From a virus: a stretch of 64,000 bases of DNA. The stretch is taken from the IMG/VR virus record IMGVR_UViG_3300041411_000178, positions 1 through 64,000 of that record; one strand, 5' to 3'. This document shows, one piece after another, positions 42,587 through 48,030 of the stretch. How positions within the stretch are numbered: position 1 is the first letter of the stretch; each line of letters starts with the position of its first letter. The notes under the pieces were generated by a model. It worked only from the letters and a program-made list of their open reading frames with translations. It ran no database searches and was not told the origin of the DNA. Position numbers and translations under genes: made by a program.

Positions 42587-43969
42587 TTACTCAAAATAGT
42601 CCTTGCTCAGGATACGCAGCACAATGTACAGACACAGTGCCGTGCGTACCAGTTGCACGGTTTGTTGGGTTTTGACCCCAGTACGTTCTTTGACGATTTC
42701 GTCACCCAGGGTTCGGATCACCTTAACGGTATCGTTCTTGCTTCGAGGGGCACCGTAGGCACCGCGCATCTTGATCAAGACGTCATAGACGTTGGTTTTC
42801 TTAATACCATTGGTATGCAGGTACTCAAACATGTGCTGAAGGACTGCATCAGCGAACTGTTTGTACTCCGGCTTCTTCGGGTTGTTGTACATCGTCGGGA
42901 ACTGCTGAATAACATACGCCAACTTATCGCGAGGGCAACCTTCCAGCGCATCCGCAGAGTACTTGATCAACTCGTCCTTGTAGAACGAGGTCTCCTCAGT
43001 GAGGATACGATCCAGGTAGAGACCAAACTGCGTGATCTCTTTGGTCTGCGTCTTCAAAGCCAGTTCGTCACCGAGGTTAACCTTGGCTCCGTCAATCCGC
43101 ACGATGTCAGTTTTGTTCTTGACGTCGTGGAAGACTTTGTTGATGTCGTTAATAGCCCGACGCAAACGGTTCTGGATATCACCGACCATGTAGACGATTT
43201 TCTTGTCGTCATCCATCTTGGAGAAAGCGTCGTAGTGGATACCCGTCTTCGGATTGATAATGAACTCAGCCCGAGCTTCGATCAGTGCACGCCAGCTACC
43301 GTAACGCTTGATGTCGTATTTCAGACTCAAGCGGTTGTAGGTTTCCATCGCCACTTCTTTCCGTGCCATGAACGGATAGTCGTTGTGAATGATCGAGGTC
43401 AAACACTTGTAGTGGTACATCGCCAGGATGTCGATCATGGCCTGGTGTTTGGTGTCCTTGCTCAGACTTGAGCGATTGACCCGATACAGCAGGTACGGAA
43501 TGGTCAGGTTGAAGGTATCACCCACCACACTCCATTCCTTGTTCACCGCTTTGGCTGCGTGCAGGTTTTCTTTGAGTTCCTCTTCATCAACGTCGAAGAT
43601 CTCAGAGAACCACTGGTTACGGTCGGCCGTCGTGAAGGTGATCTTGTGCAAACCCAGATACGGAGAACCGAAGAACTCCATATGACTGACCACGCCTACG
43701 GTCCGGGTTACGAACGAATAGACATAACGGCGAAGTGTCTTGGCCCACTTCTCGTCAACTACCAGGAAATCACCGAACGAGTTGCAGATGTCCAGGATCG
43801 CATGGTTGCTGTCGAAGTTGATGCCGTTGAGCAAAGCCTCAGCACCCGTGACCGACTGGATCTCTTGAGGCTCGATCGGGTACAGGTACAGTCCGCCTTG
43901 AGCGAGGATCGAGTGTTCCTCCAGACCTTCAAACAAACTGAAGATCGAGGGTTCAATGAAAGATGTCAT
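42587..43969 (-). CDS. Unknown protein, 460 aa, probably late/virion
   Basis: No recognised domain; alpha-helical with many Tyr/Lys residues. It sits between a 282-aa gene whose stop overlaps its start (TGATG) and the Tmk-like gene 9 bp downstream, so it belongs to the leftward run 44817-41564. The positions between terminase and PhuZ genes hold conserved virion proteins in phiKZ-type phages, hence the tentative structural call. Confidence 0.65.
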   Translation of the reverse strand: MTSFIEPSIFSLFEGLEEHSILAQGGLYLYPIEPQEIQSVTGAEALLNGINFDSNHAILDICNSFGDFLVVDEKWAKTLRRYVYSFVTRTVGVVSHMEFFGSPYLGLHKITFTTADRNQWFSEIFDVDEEELKENLHAAKAVNKEWSVVGDTFNLTIPYLLYRVNRSSLSKDTKHQAMIDILAMYHYKCLTSIIHNDYPFMARKEVAMETYNRLSLKYDIKRYGSWRALIEARAEFIINPKTGIHYDAFSKMDDDKKIVYMVGDIQNRLRRAINDINKVFHDVKNKTDIVRIDGAKVNLGDELALKTQTKEITQFGLYLDRILTEETSFYKDELIKYSADALEGCPRDKLAYVIQQFPTMYNNPKKPEYKQFADAVLQHMFEYLHTNGIKKTNVYDVLIKMRGAYGAPRSKNDTVKVIRTLGDEIVKERTGVKTQQTVQLVRTALCLYIVLRILSKDYFE

Positions 43970-44817
43970 CAGAATCTCCTTGGTACGGCACGACGTACGG
44001 CATCAGTCACACGCTGACGGTCACTGTAGGCCATCCGCTTGGTCCATTCCGTAGTGAGGTATTCGTGGTAGTCTTTCCAGGCATCACGATATTCCATGAT
44101 GTCGTCTTTGATGTCACTCAAAGAAACACCGCTACGGATAATCGCTTCCTGGGTTGGTCGACGGCAGGTCCGGTAGATGTGTGCCTTAACGGCCAACTCT
44201 ACCAGGTGAGCAAAGTGTTCATACTGGCGTGTCGAAATACTGCTCAGACCTTCATCGTACTCCAGGATCATCTTGGCCGACATCGAGTAAGTACCCGAAC
44301 TCAAACCAAAGATCACGAAGCAGTTGTTACCGGTCATATGGATGTTGTTGTAGGTCACCGGCATCTGACGGTTGGAGCTGAGGCTGTCCACCAGCGCTTC
44401 AGTCATGTCCGAGACGCTACCTTGTCCACACATCTCGCTGCTGTTAACCGTCATACCCAGCATGCCCGTCGACGAGGTCATCGAACCCAGGTAGATCTCG
44501 GTCACGGAAATGATCTTGCGACCACCGGTAACAATGTCCGGTACGTTTACTTCAATACATGCGTTACCCAGGTCCCGGATACGAGCACCGGTCAGGTCGA
44601 TGAACTCGGTCTTGCCACCGTTGGCATTACAGGCTGGCAGTACAGTACGGTGAATTACTTTCTCACGGATACCCTGTTCCACAGTCGTGTGGTTAACCAG
44701 GTTGTACCAGTTGCCTGCGAAGTTACCATTGGGGGCTTCGAAAGCAAGTTTAAGCAGGTAGTCATCGATGTCACAGTTGGTGACCCGATTGATGGCATAA
44801 TCCACCGCATTACTCAT
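43969..44817 (-). CDS. Unknown protein, 282 aa, first gene of the leftward run
   Basis: The product begins MSNAVDYAINRVTNCDIDD. The middle (TSSTGMLGMTVNSSEMCGQG) is beta-rich and the C-terminus is helical and basic (RAVPRRF). No domain recognised. Its stop overlaps the next start by one base. It faces a 481-bp non-coding region that also carries the promoter for the rightward Ntn hydrolase pair. Confidence 0.65.
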   Translation of the reverse strand: MSNAVDYAINRVTNCDIDDYLLKLAFEAPNGNFAGNWYNLVNHTTVEQGIREKVIHRTVLPACNANGGKTEFIDLTGARIRDLGNACIEVNVPDIVTGGRKIISVTEIYLGSMTSSTGMLGMTVNSSEMCGQGSVSDMTEALVDSLSSNRQMPVTYNNIHMTGNNCFVIFGLSSGTYSMSAKMILEYDEGLSSISTRQYEHFAHLVELAVKAHIYRTCRRPTQEAIIRSGVSLSDIKDDIMEYRDAWKDYHEYLTTEWTKRMAYSDRQRVTDAVRRAVPRRF

Positions 44818-45298
44818 GATAGGATTCTCGATGGGATGAAATGAGGGAAGTCATAGCATCGTATATCTTTTTTCACTTTTCACTTTTTGGAAGGTATCAT
44901 TTCAGGTGGGTTATGGGGATACCCTGTAGGGTAGATTACCCTCTGGCTATAAAACGTCTCAAATCGCTTCTCAGGAGATCGGTGGATAGATATGAAGGTA
45001 GGGTAGGATATTCTTAGGTCTACATTATCTGGTTGATAGGAAATAAAGGTATTTTTCTACTCATTTCTCCTAATCATATACGGAGAAAAGTGGGGAGGGG
45101 GTCTAACAGTAAAACAGCAACAGTTTAGTAAAAGTGTTTAACTCAGTTAGCAACAAAGAAAAGAAACATTACTTATTAAAACTCTCTATGACTGAGGTCA
45201 TGGAGGGGTAAGGGGATATATGCGGGCTGAAAGGTTATTTCTAACCCTAAGACGCATATTCTAGAAAAACTATTTAGAAGTAACGTGAGGAGAGACCT
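44818..45298. promoter_or_regulatory. 481-bp regulatory region with repeats, an early-type promoter and a structured leader
   Basis: No convincing ORF is present. Three elements stand out. First, TACCCTGTAGGGTA (44920-44933) is an inverted repeat, followed at once by GGGTAGATTACCC (44929-44941) and by another GGTAGGGTAGG near 44996-45006. Second, the early-type core TTAGGTCTACATTATCT lies at about 45014-45030. Third, the 5' leader has a two-part stem: outer ATATGCG/CGCATAT (45218-45224/45253-45259) and inner GGTTA-TTTC-TAACC (45233-45246), ending 40 nt before the first ATG. The GGGTA repeats beside the promoter look like operator sites. Confidence 0.5.
45008..45032 (+). promoter_or_regulatory. 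Early-type promoter for the Ntn hydrolase pair
   Basis: ATATTCTTAGGTCTACATTA (45008-45027) followed by TCTGG matches the shared early element with two deviations (TTAG for TCAG, ATTATC for ATTACT). It would give a leader of about 270 nt. Confidence 0.5.
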
Positions 45299-45841
45299 AT
45301 GACAACGATTTGCTGGGATGGGAAGAAACTTGTCAGTGATTCACAGGTGACAGCCGGCATGCAGATCTCACCTGGGGGACTGCGGAAGATCTACACCCCT
45401 GAAGAAGGTGAGTATTGGGATGTGAACGGCCATCGTGTTTTGGCTGCTGGCATTTCGGGGGACGGTAAGTCGATTGAATACGTCAGGGAACACCTGCGAG
45501 TTGGTGTGACCTACAAAACGAGAATTGAGGATGTAGACGAACTCAACTTCTCTGCACTGCTGATCGCTGAAGACGGCAATTGCTATCGCTGGGGAATGAC
45601 TAAGCGTCAGGGTCGTCCTCTGATGACAGACATCGTACCACTGCTGCCTCCTACTGCCGTAGGTTCTGGGCAAACCTTTGCACTGGCAGTGATGTCGATT
45701 GGCAAACCCGCAGAAGCCGCTGTACGCGCCGCTATCCGTCACGACAAGTGGTCCGGTGGCGATCTGCAAATCTGGGAAGTCCCACCTAAACCCGCCACCA
45801 AGTCCGTTCGACCAGTGGTTACCGAACCTACACCCGCTTGA
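45299..45841 (+). CDS. Proteasome/HslV-like Ntn hydrolase, copy 1, 180 aa
   Basis: The start MTTICWDGKKLVSDSQ matches the N-terminus of HslV and proteasome beta subunits after Met removal. The N-terminal Thr2 (nucleophile), D14 and K30 (RKIY) correspond to the T1/D17/K33 catalytic set, and GSGQTFALAVMSIG matches the GSG-containing strand. Size fits HslV (about 175 aa) plus a Pro-rich tail. No HslU-type unfoldase is in the window. The next gene is a clear paralogue. The early-type promoter suggests a role soon after infection, such as degrading or modifying host proteins; the substrate is unknown. Confidence 0.65.
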   Translation: MTTICWDGKKLVSDSQVTAGMQISPGGLRKIYTPEEGEYWDVNGHRVLAAGISGDGKSIEYVREHLRVGVTYKTRIEDVDELNFSALLIAEDGNCYRWGMTKRQGRPLMTDIVPLLPPTAVGSGQTFALAVMSIGKPAEAAVRAAIRHDKWSGGDLQIWEVPPKPATKSVRPVVTEPTPA

Positions 45842-45856
45842 TCAGGAAAACACATC

Positions 45857-46468
45857 ATGTCAACAGCCGCATTCGACGGTAAACTTCTGGTCACTGACTC
45901 GGCCATCCACACCGGCGGGCAAATCAGCCCCAGTGAGTTCCGCAAGATCTATACACCAGAAGAAAATGAGTACTGGGAGATCTGCGGTGTTAAAGCAATC
46001 GCATTTGCTCTGATCGGTACTCCCATTGTCTACCCGCAGTTCCGCAAGATATTGCAGGACGGCATGGATCACAGTTCTGACGCAACGGTATTTGACGGTA
46101 CATTCGAAGCCATTGTGGTGGGTGAAAACGGCGCCGGGTACCAGATCATCTTGTCGGAATCCAACAAGGAAGGCAAGAAGCAAATACTGCAAATCGTTCC
46201 AGGTACCGGATTCCTTGCCGTTGGGGACGGCGATCAATTCGCGTTGGCTGTAATGTCTGTCGGTAAGTCTGCTCGTGTGGGTGTCAAGGCGGCGATCAAC
46301 CTGTGCATTGAGAGCGGGGGCAATCTCCAGGTATTCGAAGTACCACCGCCACCTGAGACACCTTCTGTGCGTCCTAAGAAGGGGTACCCAACAACCGAAG
46401 AGTCGCTGGCCCAGCTTCGGGAATTGGTCAAGGAAGAAGAGCGTCAGGAAGCCAAAGCCAAGGCGTAA
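45857..46468 (+). CDS. Proteasome/HslV-like Ntn hydrolase, copy 2, 203 aa
   Basis: A paralogue of the preceding gene: DGKLLVTDS, QISP, RKIYTPEE.EYW, FALAVMS.GK and GGNLQ..EVPPPP are shared in order. Here Met is followed by Ser-Thr, so Met removal exposes Ser2, an alternative Ntn nucleophile; D14 and K30 are kept. A C-terminal charged helix of about 25 residues (EESLAQLRELVKEEERQEAK) is absent from copy 1. The pair may form a mixed ring with active and weak subunits. The 15-nt spacing shows cotranscription. Confidence 0.65.
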   Translation: MSTAAFDGKLLVTDSAIHTGGQISPSEFRKIYTPEENEYWEICGVKAIAFALIGTPIVYPQFRKILQDGMDHSSDATVFDGTFEAIVVGENGAGYQIILSESNKEGKKQILQIVPGTGFLAVGDGDQFALAVMSVGKSARVGVKAAINLCIESGGNLQVFEVPPPPETPSVRPKKGYPTTEESLAQLRELVKEEERQEAKAKA

Positions 46469-46950: not shown

Positions 46951-46971
46951 ATTTCAAGCCTACATTACCTG
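46951..46971 (+). promoter_or_regulatory. Early-type promoter for phuZ
   Basis: ATTTCAAGCCTACATTACCT (46951-46970) matches the shared early element with a single change at the last base of ATTACT. It lies about 60 nt before the phuZ ATG. Confidence 0.6.
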
Positions 46972-47031: not shown

Positions 47032-48030
47032 ATGAATGCGAATACTTCTGATCTGGCATATTTCCTCTGCGGTGGTACCGGGATCAACATCGGCGTGGCT
47101 CTGAAAAAGGGTACTCACACCGACAACAACAAAAACGCTTTCTTCGTGGGCCTGGACTCCTCGGACCGCAACAGCTCCAACGATCTGTTCGAAGTCGTGC
47201 AGATGGCCGTTGCCAACGATCCAGACCAGAAAGCCAAGGGCTCGGGTAAAGTCAAAGCGACCAACTACCCACAGGCTGAGCAGTTCGTGACTCAGTTCCT
47301 GACCAAGCACAAGCCGCGCGATTACAACATCATCGTCTGCTCCACCGGCGGTGGTACTGGTTCCATGCTGGCCTTCGTTCTGGCGCGCATGCTGTTCGAA
47401 CGCGATCAACTGGTTGTGCTGTGCTTCGTCAACGACAAGACCTCGCAGGTTGAAGAGATCAACGTCGTGAACAGCTACCGTTCGTACGCATCGCTGACCA
47501 CCCCAGGTTCGCTGAATCGCGTCGTTCCGTACATGGAATTCGACAACACCCTGACCAACACTCGCGGTGAAGTCAACCAGATGATCATCGACAAGCTCGA
47601 TGTGGCCAGCCTGTTCCTGACCAACGCGAACAAAGAGCAAGACCACACCGACCTGAAGAACCTGCTGAACTTCAGCAAGCACTACGGCGTTCCACCGTCC
47701 ATGTCGCGCATCCGCTTCTACGACGAAAACGGCGTGGCAGACTTCAAGGGCAAAGTGCCGGTTGCGGTCTCCTCCCTGTTCGAAAGCAGCGATGCGGTCA
47801 TCCCACGTTTCAACGGCACCGTGATCCGTTCCACCGGCGTGTTCGCTGACGGCGTTAAGCGTCCAAGCAACGCCAACGAACTGCACATGGTCCTGGACCA
47901 CGGCGAGGCTCTGAAAGAGCTGGAGAAACACATCGAAGCCATGGAAACCCGCAAGGTCGAAACTCAATCGTCCTTTACCCAGCAGAAGGATCTCTCTGCC
48001 GGCGCGGACGACAAAGGCTTCTTCCTGTAA
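47032..48030 (+). CDS. phuZ: PhuZ-type phage tubulin
   Basis: A 332-aa tubulin/FtsZ-superfamily GTPase. The tubulin signature CSTGGGTGS is at residues 103-111, and the T1 loop GGTGINIG is at 14-21. In phiKZ-type phages PhuZ forms dynamic filaments that centre the phage nucleus and deliver capsids to it. The C-terminus ends in an acidic-hydrophobic tail (DDKGFFL), as needed for PhuZ polymerisation. The ATG at 47032 was chosen although the frame is open upstream to 46675, because the size then equals known PhuZ (about 315 aa) and AGAG lies before it. Codon bias is very strong. Confidence 0.9.
   Translation: MNANTSDLAYFLCGGTGINIGVALKKGTHTDNNKNAFFVGLDSSDRNSSNDLFEVVQMAVANDPDQKAKGSGKVKATNYPQAEQFVTQFLTKHKPRDYNIIVCSTGGGTGSMLAFVLARMLFERDQLVVLCFVNDKTSQVEEINVVNSYRSYASLTTPGSLNRVVPYMEFDNTLTNTRGEVNQMIIDKLDVASLFLTNANKEQDHTDLKNLLNFSKHYGVPPSMSRIRFYDENGVADFKGKVPVAVSSLFESSDAVIPRFNGTVIRSTGVFADGVKRPSNANELHMVLDHGEALKELEKHIEAMETRKVETQSSFTQQKDLSAGADDKGFFL

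Follow-up and report, generated by a model that had tools for sequence, protein, structure and literature searches.

The 20S proteasome contains inactive subunits. HslV, in turn, is built with a catalytic Thr1 in every subunit. A further family of proteasome-like proteins, the PPH family, lacks helix H2, and only limited functional clues to it have been reported (Fuchs, Alva and Lupas 2021, PMC8665760). The RPC proteins, which are recorded in proteobacteria only and not in phages (PMC8665760, Table 1), have a PPH-like core with an extra C-terminus and also miss H2. As for phages, Salmonella phage pSal-SNUABM-04 has two HslV-annotated genes, ORF 1 and ORF 116, in a single jumbo phage (PMC7823757).

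We analyzed bases 1-64000 (the window) of a 224,004-base viral record, which is possibly a fragment. Two tandem genes, pphA and pphB, are located in the window, and their products are referred to as copies A and B (Table 1). The pair resembles PPH as described in the accessible text of PMC8665760 in that it is phage-borne, has no propeptide, carries a Thr/Ser-Asp-Lys triad on an Ntn core, and misses helix H2. It differs in length (180 and 203 residues versus about 140 in PPH), in having a C-terminal P...S.RP segment, in occurring as tandem pairs or triplets, and in including copies without the second triad. The excess length is partly accounted for by the C-terminal segment and tail. As the likeness is one of description and the length differs, we refer to the pair as PPH-like and do not assert PPH membership. 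RPC, compared by description as well, differs in its proteobacterial distribution. The pair shares the fold and the first triad with HslV, which is among the best structural matches, but it lacks the H1-H2 helix pair, an HslU match in the record, and a match to the NCBIfam HslV model, and copy B has Ser1. Given the absent model match, the Ser1 subunit, and the missing H2, the pair is not HslV. The 20S β subunits resemble the pair in that copy A keeps both triads and complete and degenerate subunits coexist; the differences are that copy B keeps Ser-Asp-Lys while being devoid of Ser129 and Asp166, that there is no propeptide, and that the pair is viral and known from genes alone. In pSal-SNUABM-04, ORF 1 and ORF 116 are about 103 kb apart by record coordinates and hence not tandem; ORF 116, considered as a second PPH, gave no family-profile match and weak phmmer matches only.

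Table 1. Features of the pphA-pphB locus in window coordinates.
Feature	Coordinates	Strand	Description
Next divergent neighbor	42587..43969	-	Synteny conserved; no Pfam match at E up to 0.01
DUF7484 gene, divergent neighbor	43969..44817	-	Synteny conserved
Early promoter motif, EL-type, 5' of pphA	45012..45028	+	Predicted transcription start at about 45035
Leader, long	45029..45298	+	
pphA	45299..45841	+	PPH-like Ntn hydrolase, 180 aa; T2, D14, K30, G54, S123, D149, S152 correspond to proteasome T1, D17, K33, G47, S129, D166, S169
pphB	45857..46468	+	Paralogue of pphA, 203 aa; S2, D14, K30 kept; D at the Ser129 position, C at the Asp166 position; 30-residue C-terminal tail with predicted helix 180-202
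Early promoter motif, second copy, 5' of phuZ	46952..46968	+	
phuZ, tubulin-like gene	47032..48030	+	Pfam Tubulin, E 7.9e-7, slightly short of the curated cut-off

The two genes are separated by 15 bases, and a GAGG- or AGGA-type sequence precedes each start codon. With the copy A protein as query, copy B was found at 43% identity (E 4.7e-37), so the tandem paralogous reading frames proposed in the preliminary description are borne out. In each gene, only five codons lie between the upstream stop and the ATG, so that neither has space for a propeptide. Once Met1 is removed, the N-terminal residue would be Thr in copy A and Ser in copy B.

Both copies match phrog_1040, annotated as peptidase HslV family (E 4.2e-29 for A and 3.1e-16 for B); we infer from the descriptions, rather than from sequence comparison, that phrog_1040 corresponds to PPH. 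Neither copy alone matched Pfam Proteasome, the NCBIfam HslV model was not among their matches at E up to 1, and a PDB sequence search with copy A alone gave no proteasome match. In the PDB, a profile of 72 family members found chains of 20S β, HslV, and BPH (best E 4.6e-8) and matched E. coli HslV at 1.2e-5. With an E cut-off of 0.1, Pfam Proteasome recognizes 22 of the 72 members individually (best 1.5e-9), copy A not among them. The AlphaFold models of A and B are confident (pLDDT 94.3 and 92.1). Each has at least 50 structural matches among HslV, 20S, and BPH chains, with Z of 15.7-17.4 over 140-148 residues. The model of A aligns with HslV of 4g4e (Z 17.2, rmsd 2.4, 144 residues) and that of B with HslV of 4hnz (Z 17.4, rmsd 2.0, 142 residues), at an identity of 15-22% to HslV over the structural alignment. 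In the best matches of both copies, model residue 2 superposes on HslV residue 1. The confident models and this superposition let the proteasome/HslV-type Ntn fold and the T2/S2-D14-K30 assignment, both proposed earlier, stand. Helix H2 is absent from both models, which have a single helix (58-68 in A, 58-67 in B) between the strand 45-54 and the strand starting at 82/83; the model of B has an extra three-residue turn at 76-78.

The first triad is conserved nearly throughout the family. The family set contains 90 unique members from 114 loci, and its underlying scan retained 80 of 209 stretches. Residue 2 is Thr in 81 members and Ser in the other nine, Asp14 is invariant (90/90), and residue 30 is Lys in 88, with the reservation that an N-terminal stretch was one of the two search patterns of the largest scan and biases these residue counts. 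The counts were made after trimming to the M[TS] start; untrimmed frames gave identical numbers. Conservation of T2/D14/K30 in relatives had been named beforehand as the point on which the assignment could fail, and it is found (Thr or Ser in 90/90). The remaining positions, Ser129, Asp166, Ser169, and Gly47, were mapped by aligning the family profile to proteasome β-8, the mature numbering being counted on this alignment. The full active-site set is kept by 67 of the 90 members.

At these positions the two copies diverge. Listed in the order of Table 1, copy A has T, D, K, G, S, D, S, which is the whole known active-site set with both triads, and copy B has S, D, K, G, D, C, S. Specifically, B keeps Ser1-Asp17-Lys33 and loses Ser129 and Asp166 of the second triad, while the oxyanion Gly47 is present in both. 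The catalytic set earlier ascribed to both paralogues thus holds for T2/S2, D14, and K30, but not for Ser129 and Asp166 in B. In the B orthologues of loci L004, L006, L023, L007, and L025, position 129 is D, D, P, T, and S, and position 166 is C, C, C, N, and N, respectively. Gly47 is replaced by Ala or Ser in the B orthologues of L006, L023, and L007, and Ser169 by Cys or Thr among the B orthologues. The B-clade members of L027 and L008 retain the full set. Altogether, Ser129 and/or Asp166 is lost in six of eight B-clade rows and the oxyanion Gly in three of eight. The view that one copy exposes Thr and the other Ser holds in the window and, this pair included, in six of eight orthologous pairs, and that of two non-equivalent paralogues in one unit is supported by the missing second triad of B. 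In the yeast 20S proteasome, Ser129 and Asp166 are described as a second triad that donates a proton to the Thr1 amine and on which efficient proteolysis depends; activity drops steeply in D166N, D166A blocks both autolysis and catalysis, and T1S costs 40-45% of the activity (PMC4792962). By this precedent, B without Ser129 and Asp166 is expected to work slowly or not at all. A lost second triad means less activity, but not necessarily none.

Copies A and B are retained together under purifying selection beside phuZ. For A, dN/dS could be computed for 18 of 21 pairs and ranges over 0-0.23; for B, with seven genes, it could be computed for 20 of 21 pairs and ranges over 0.09-0.28. Many pairs have dS near saturation. 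Because both copies are under such selection, B has probably been kept as a slow or inactive subunit. All B orthologues group in a single clade with support of 100/98. A single clade of A orthologues does not appear in the best tree, yet it is not rejected (p-AU 0.33). A link between the Ser nucleophile and loss of the second triad was considered and discarded: the loss is seen in seven of eight Ser rows versus four of 21 Thr rows (Fisher p 0.001), but the association fails once relatedness is allowed for (three independent pairs, sign test p = 1).

Tandem arrays recur across viruses. They were found in 16 records, namely the window, 11 IMG/VR pair contigs, three triplet contigs, and Shewanella phage FishSpeaker, which reduce to about 12 distinct arrays with two triplet kinds when near-duplicates are merged. 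In all 16 records phuZ lies downstream of the array. The full residue set is kept by one copy or more in ten of the 12 distinct arrays, and eight of the 12 include another copy without Ser129 and/or Asp166. Both triplet types (L031 and L051) are among these eight, also lie 5' of phuZ, and have the degenerate copy as their first gene. Both copies look complete at L027 and L008, and each copy at L011 has a different single change. In FishSpeaker both copies are degenerate and without the second triad; neither is therefore the active one, which makes this phage a counter-example to an active/inactive rule. Its first copy, UYE93421.1 (L019 4393-4917), is annotated as hypothetical and is a PPH-like paralogue adjoining the annotated one. 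Whole-record searches matched 15 of 15 records, with two matches in ten, three in two, and one in three. The single-match records are EL, SPN3US, and L045, the last being a 184-kb record and possibly a fragment; in the L010 record the second copy is far from the first. As single-copy relatives exist, a partner is not always needed. The single copy of EL is also 5' of phuZ, and no PhuZ match was found at the single-copy EL-like loci L010, which ends near the gene, and L045, within its 3 kb flank. The family gene of SPN3US has a different genomic setting, and that of one Jersey-like phage is between small genes and holins. A function through PhuZ was considered from synteny only; the settings in SPN3US and the Jersey-like phage indicate that the role of the family need not depend on PhuZ. 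Among the matches listed, we found no description of a tandem phage PPH/HslV pair or triplet in the open-access literature, and no mention of tandem arrays was found in the accessible text of PMC8665760. Hence, the recurrent arrays and the asymmetry of their copies are new, while the family itself was already known.

The pair is likely expressed early. The motif TCTTAGGTCTACATTAT starts 287 bases 5' of pphA and resembles the published promoter of phage EL, WTTTYAAACCTACATTATY (PMC7058600), from which it deviates in the 5' half. Its class has five sites in the window (19619, 25824, 45012, 46952, and 55398; 0.02 expected) and 11 forward, no reverse, and no reversed-control sites in the full record; since sites in the window and in relatives served to draw up the pattern, the count in the window is in part built in, which does not apply to the six further sites. 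Work on AR9 and phiKZ-related phages places transcription starts 6 nt past such elements and reports that the virion polymerase is sensitive to promoter deviations (PMC5312081). Owing to the 5'-half deviation, early expression is rated as likely only. With the G six bases past the motif as transcription start, the leader would measure about 264 nt, so that the early-type promoter motif and the long leader described previously are both recovered. All 14 records checked, the window among them, have a comparable motif no more than 400 bases from copy A. The distance is 58-118 bases in ten records, of which two have a variant core; it is 270-273 bases in L003, the L025 phage, and the window, and 381 bases in L042. 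The leader folds more stably than its shuffles (z -2.75). Between the window (45036-45298) and L025 (2145-2428), 200 of 255 leader nucleotides are identical (78%), including 86 of 91 in a core, which exceeds the nucleotide identity of both genes (62% and 59%). It has no Rfam match at the gathering score, and no phage record resembling it was found. The exact core pattern turned up in just two IMG/VR contigs, and one of these is almost identical to the window. Its conservation, fold, and narrow distribution suggest that the leader may be an early regulatory RNA. Inspection by eye also revealed a shared CGCGCTCCGTGCGCTAAAGAACCT element at L004, L005, L006, L007, L008, and L038, in a GC-rich stretch between the divergent genes and 5' of copy A.

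We searched for an unfoldase partner using the HslU family, the AAA_2 family, and RAY gp116. The HslU profile had no match in the 224,004-base record, whereas the same search gave matches in 14 of 14 control genomes, five of them over the cut-off. AAA_2 likewise had no match in the record and gave matches in control genomes. RAY gp116 as query, a search with no positive control, had no match in the record either. HslU-like ATPase segments are present in the family phages Caitlin, ChrisDB, SPAsTU, pEa_SNUABM_8, and pEa_SNUABM_9. Such segments also occur in phages outside the family lists, one list being the best 60 of 358, so they do not establish coupling as general. The missing H2 would alter the subunit end that faces HslU, which argues against ordinary HslU docking. 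The partnership with host HslU put forward in the preliminary description is weakened by models without H2, by the lack of HslU and AAA_2 matches in the record, and by the lack of an NCBIfam HslV match. Reprogramming of host proteolysis and counter-defence, the roles suggested there, are neither supported nor contradicted by these observations. RAY gp116 has been described as a nuclear protein of the HslUV protease family that co-localizes with phage DNA (PMC10299810). It was considered as a homologue providing a localization clue and dropped, for its record (L115 1353-3062) names it as the HslU ATPase subunit and its matches are to AAA families. It is an HslU-like AAA+ ATPase, and several phages of the PPH-like family encode weaker relatives of it.

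Tentatively, and at somewhat less than an even chance, we favor a mixed proteasome-like particle, expressed early, with A as the catalytic and B as a non-catalytic or weak subunit. The two genes would be transcribed early from the virion RNA polymerase promoter, and their products would assemble into one ring-type particle. Within it, A would cut, while B, slow or inactive, would supply structure, gating, or substrate selection in the manner of inactive 20S subunits. The particle would work without a phage-encoded HslU- or Clp-type unfoldase and would, for that reason, either degrade polypeptides that are unfolded or short or receive its substrates from a host factor. An asymmetric complex, as suggested in the preliminary description, fits the two sequences, and with B devoid of the second triad it becomes more specific than first proposed. 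The intact first triad of both copies, the activity of the T1S proteasome (PMC4792962), the two complete copies of L027 and L008, and the single-copy phages that manage with one would also agree with two separate enzymes, that is, homo-oligomers of A and of B that both cut, on different substrates, with B using Ser in a rewired amino-terminal environment. This account is rather unlikely, as the losses of Ser129/Asp166 in 6/8 and of the oxyanion Gly in 3/8 B-clade rows are unexpected under selection for turnover.

That the pair docks on host HslU or ClpX, or mixes into host HslV rings, and thereby blocks or redirects a host machine is improbable: the record has no HslU or AAA_2 match of its own and the HslU-like segments of other family phages make unfoldase coupling conceivable, but both models lack H2, with the consequence for the HslU-facing end given above, and the identity to HslV is only 15-22%. 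No less improbable is a monomeric or small-oligomer Ntn enzyme that is not degradative, either a site-specific protease or a connectase-like ligase with one phage or host protein as target. PPH has no H2, the authors of its description consider unprecedented quaternary structures likely for such homologues, and connectase acts as a monomeric ligase (PMC8665760), but A has a complete proteasome-type second triad and the recurrent multi-copy arrays fit subunit specialization better. B is very unlikely to be a functionless, decaying duplicate. It has lost several active-site residues and a long stem (0.86) leads to the six Ser-type B rows, yet all eight B-clade rows have open reading frames and an intact first triad, and dN/dS for the seven B genes is well below 1.

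If A and B co-assemble in the mixed particle that we favor, they would constitute a viral multi-subunit proteasome. It would show, in a natural and recent case, how tandem duplication gives rise to active and inactive subunits, a process that in eukaryotes cannot be replayed. The PPH group also gains a testable two-gene system, and a named isolate, Shewanella phage FishSpeaker, carries a pair and grows in a laboratory host.

The C-terminal P...S.RP segment is found in 24 of the 90 family members, all at loci with the same divergent neighbors. Beyond this segment, B has a 30-residue tail and A only eight residues. A fifth helix stabilizes the double β layer of many proteasome subunits (PMC8665760), and by this precedent a contact role is possible for the predicted C-terminal helix of B. 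Tails of at least 22 residues occur in nine of nine degenerate rows bearing P...S.RP versus two of 13 others, the seven motif-less rows being left out; the difference in tail length has a Mann-Whitney p of 0.003, computed from hand-entered lengths and non-independent rows. Aside from the tails, a Cys occupies the Ser169 position in seven of 29 rows from separate lineages (loci L004, L006, L023, L051, L031, L011, and L019), and both the Asp166 and Ser169 positions are Cys in L004_B, L006_B, L023_B, and L051_A. Metal binding by these recurrent Cys residues would be a guess.
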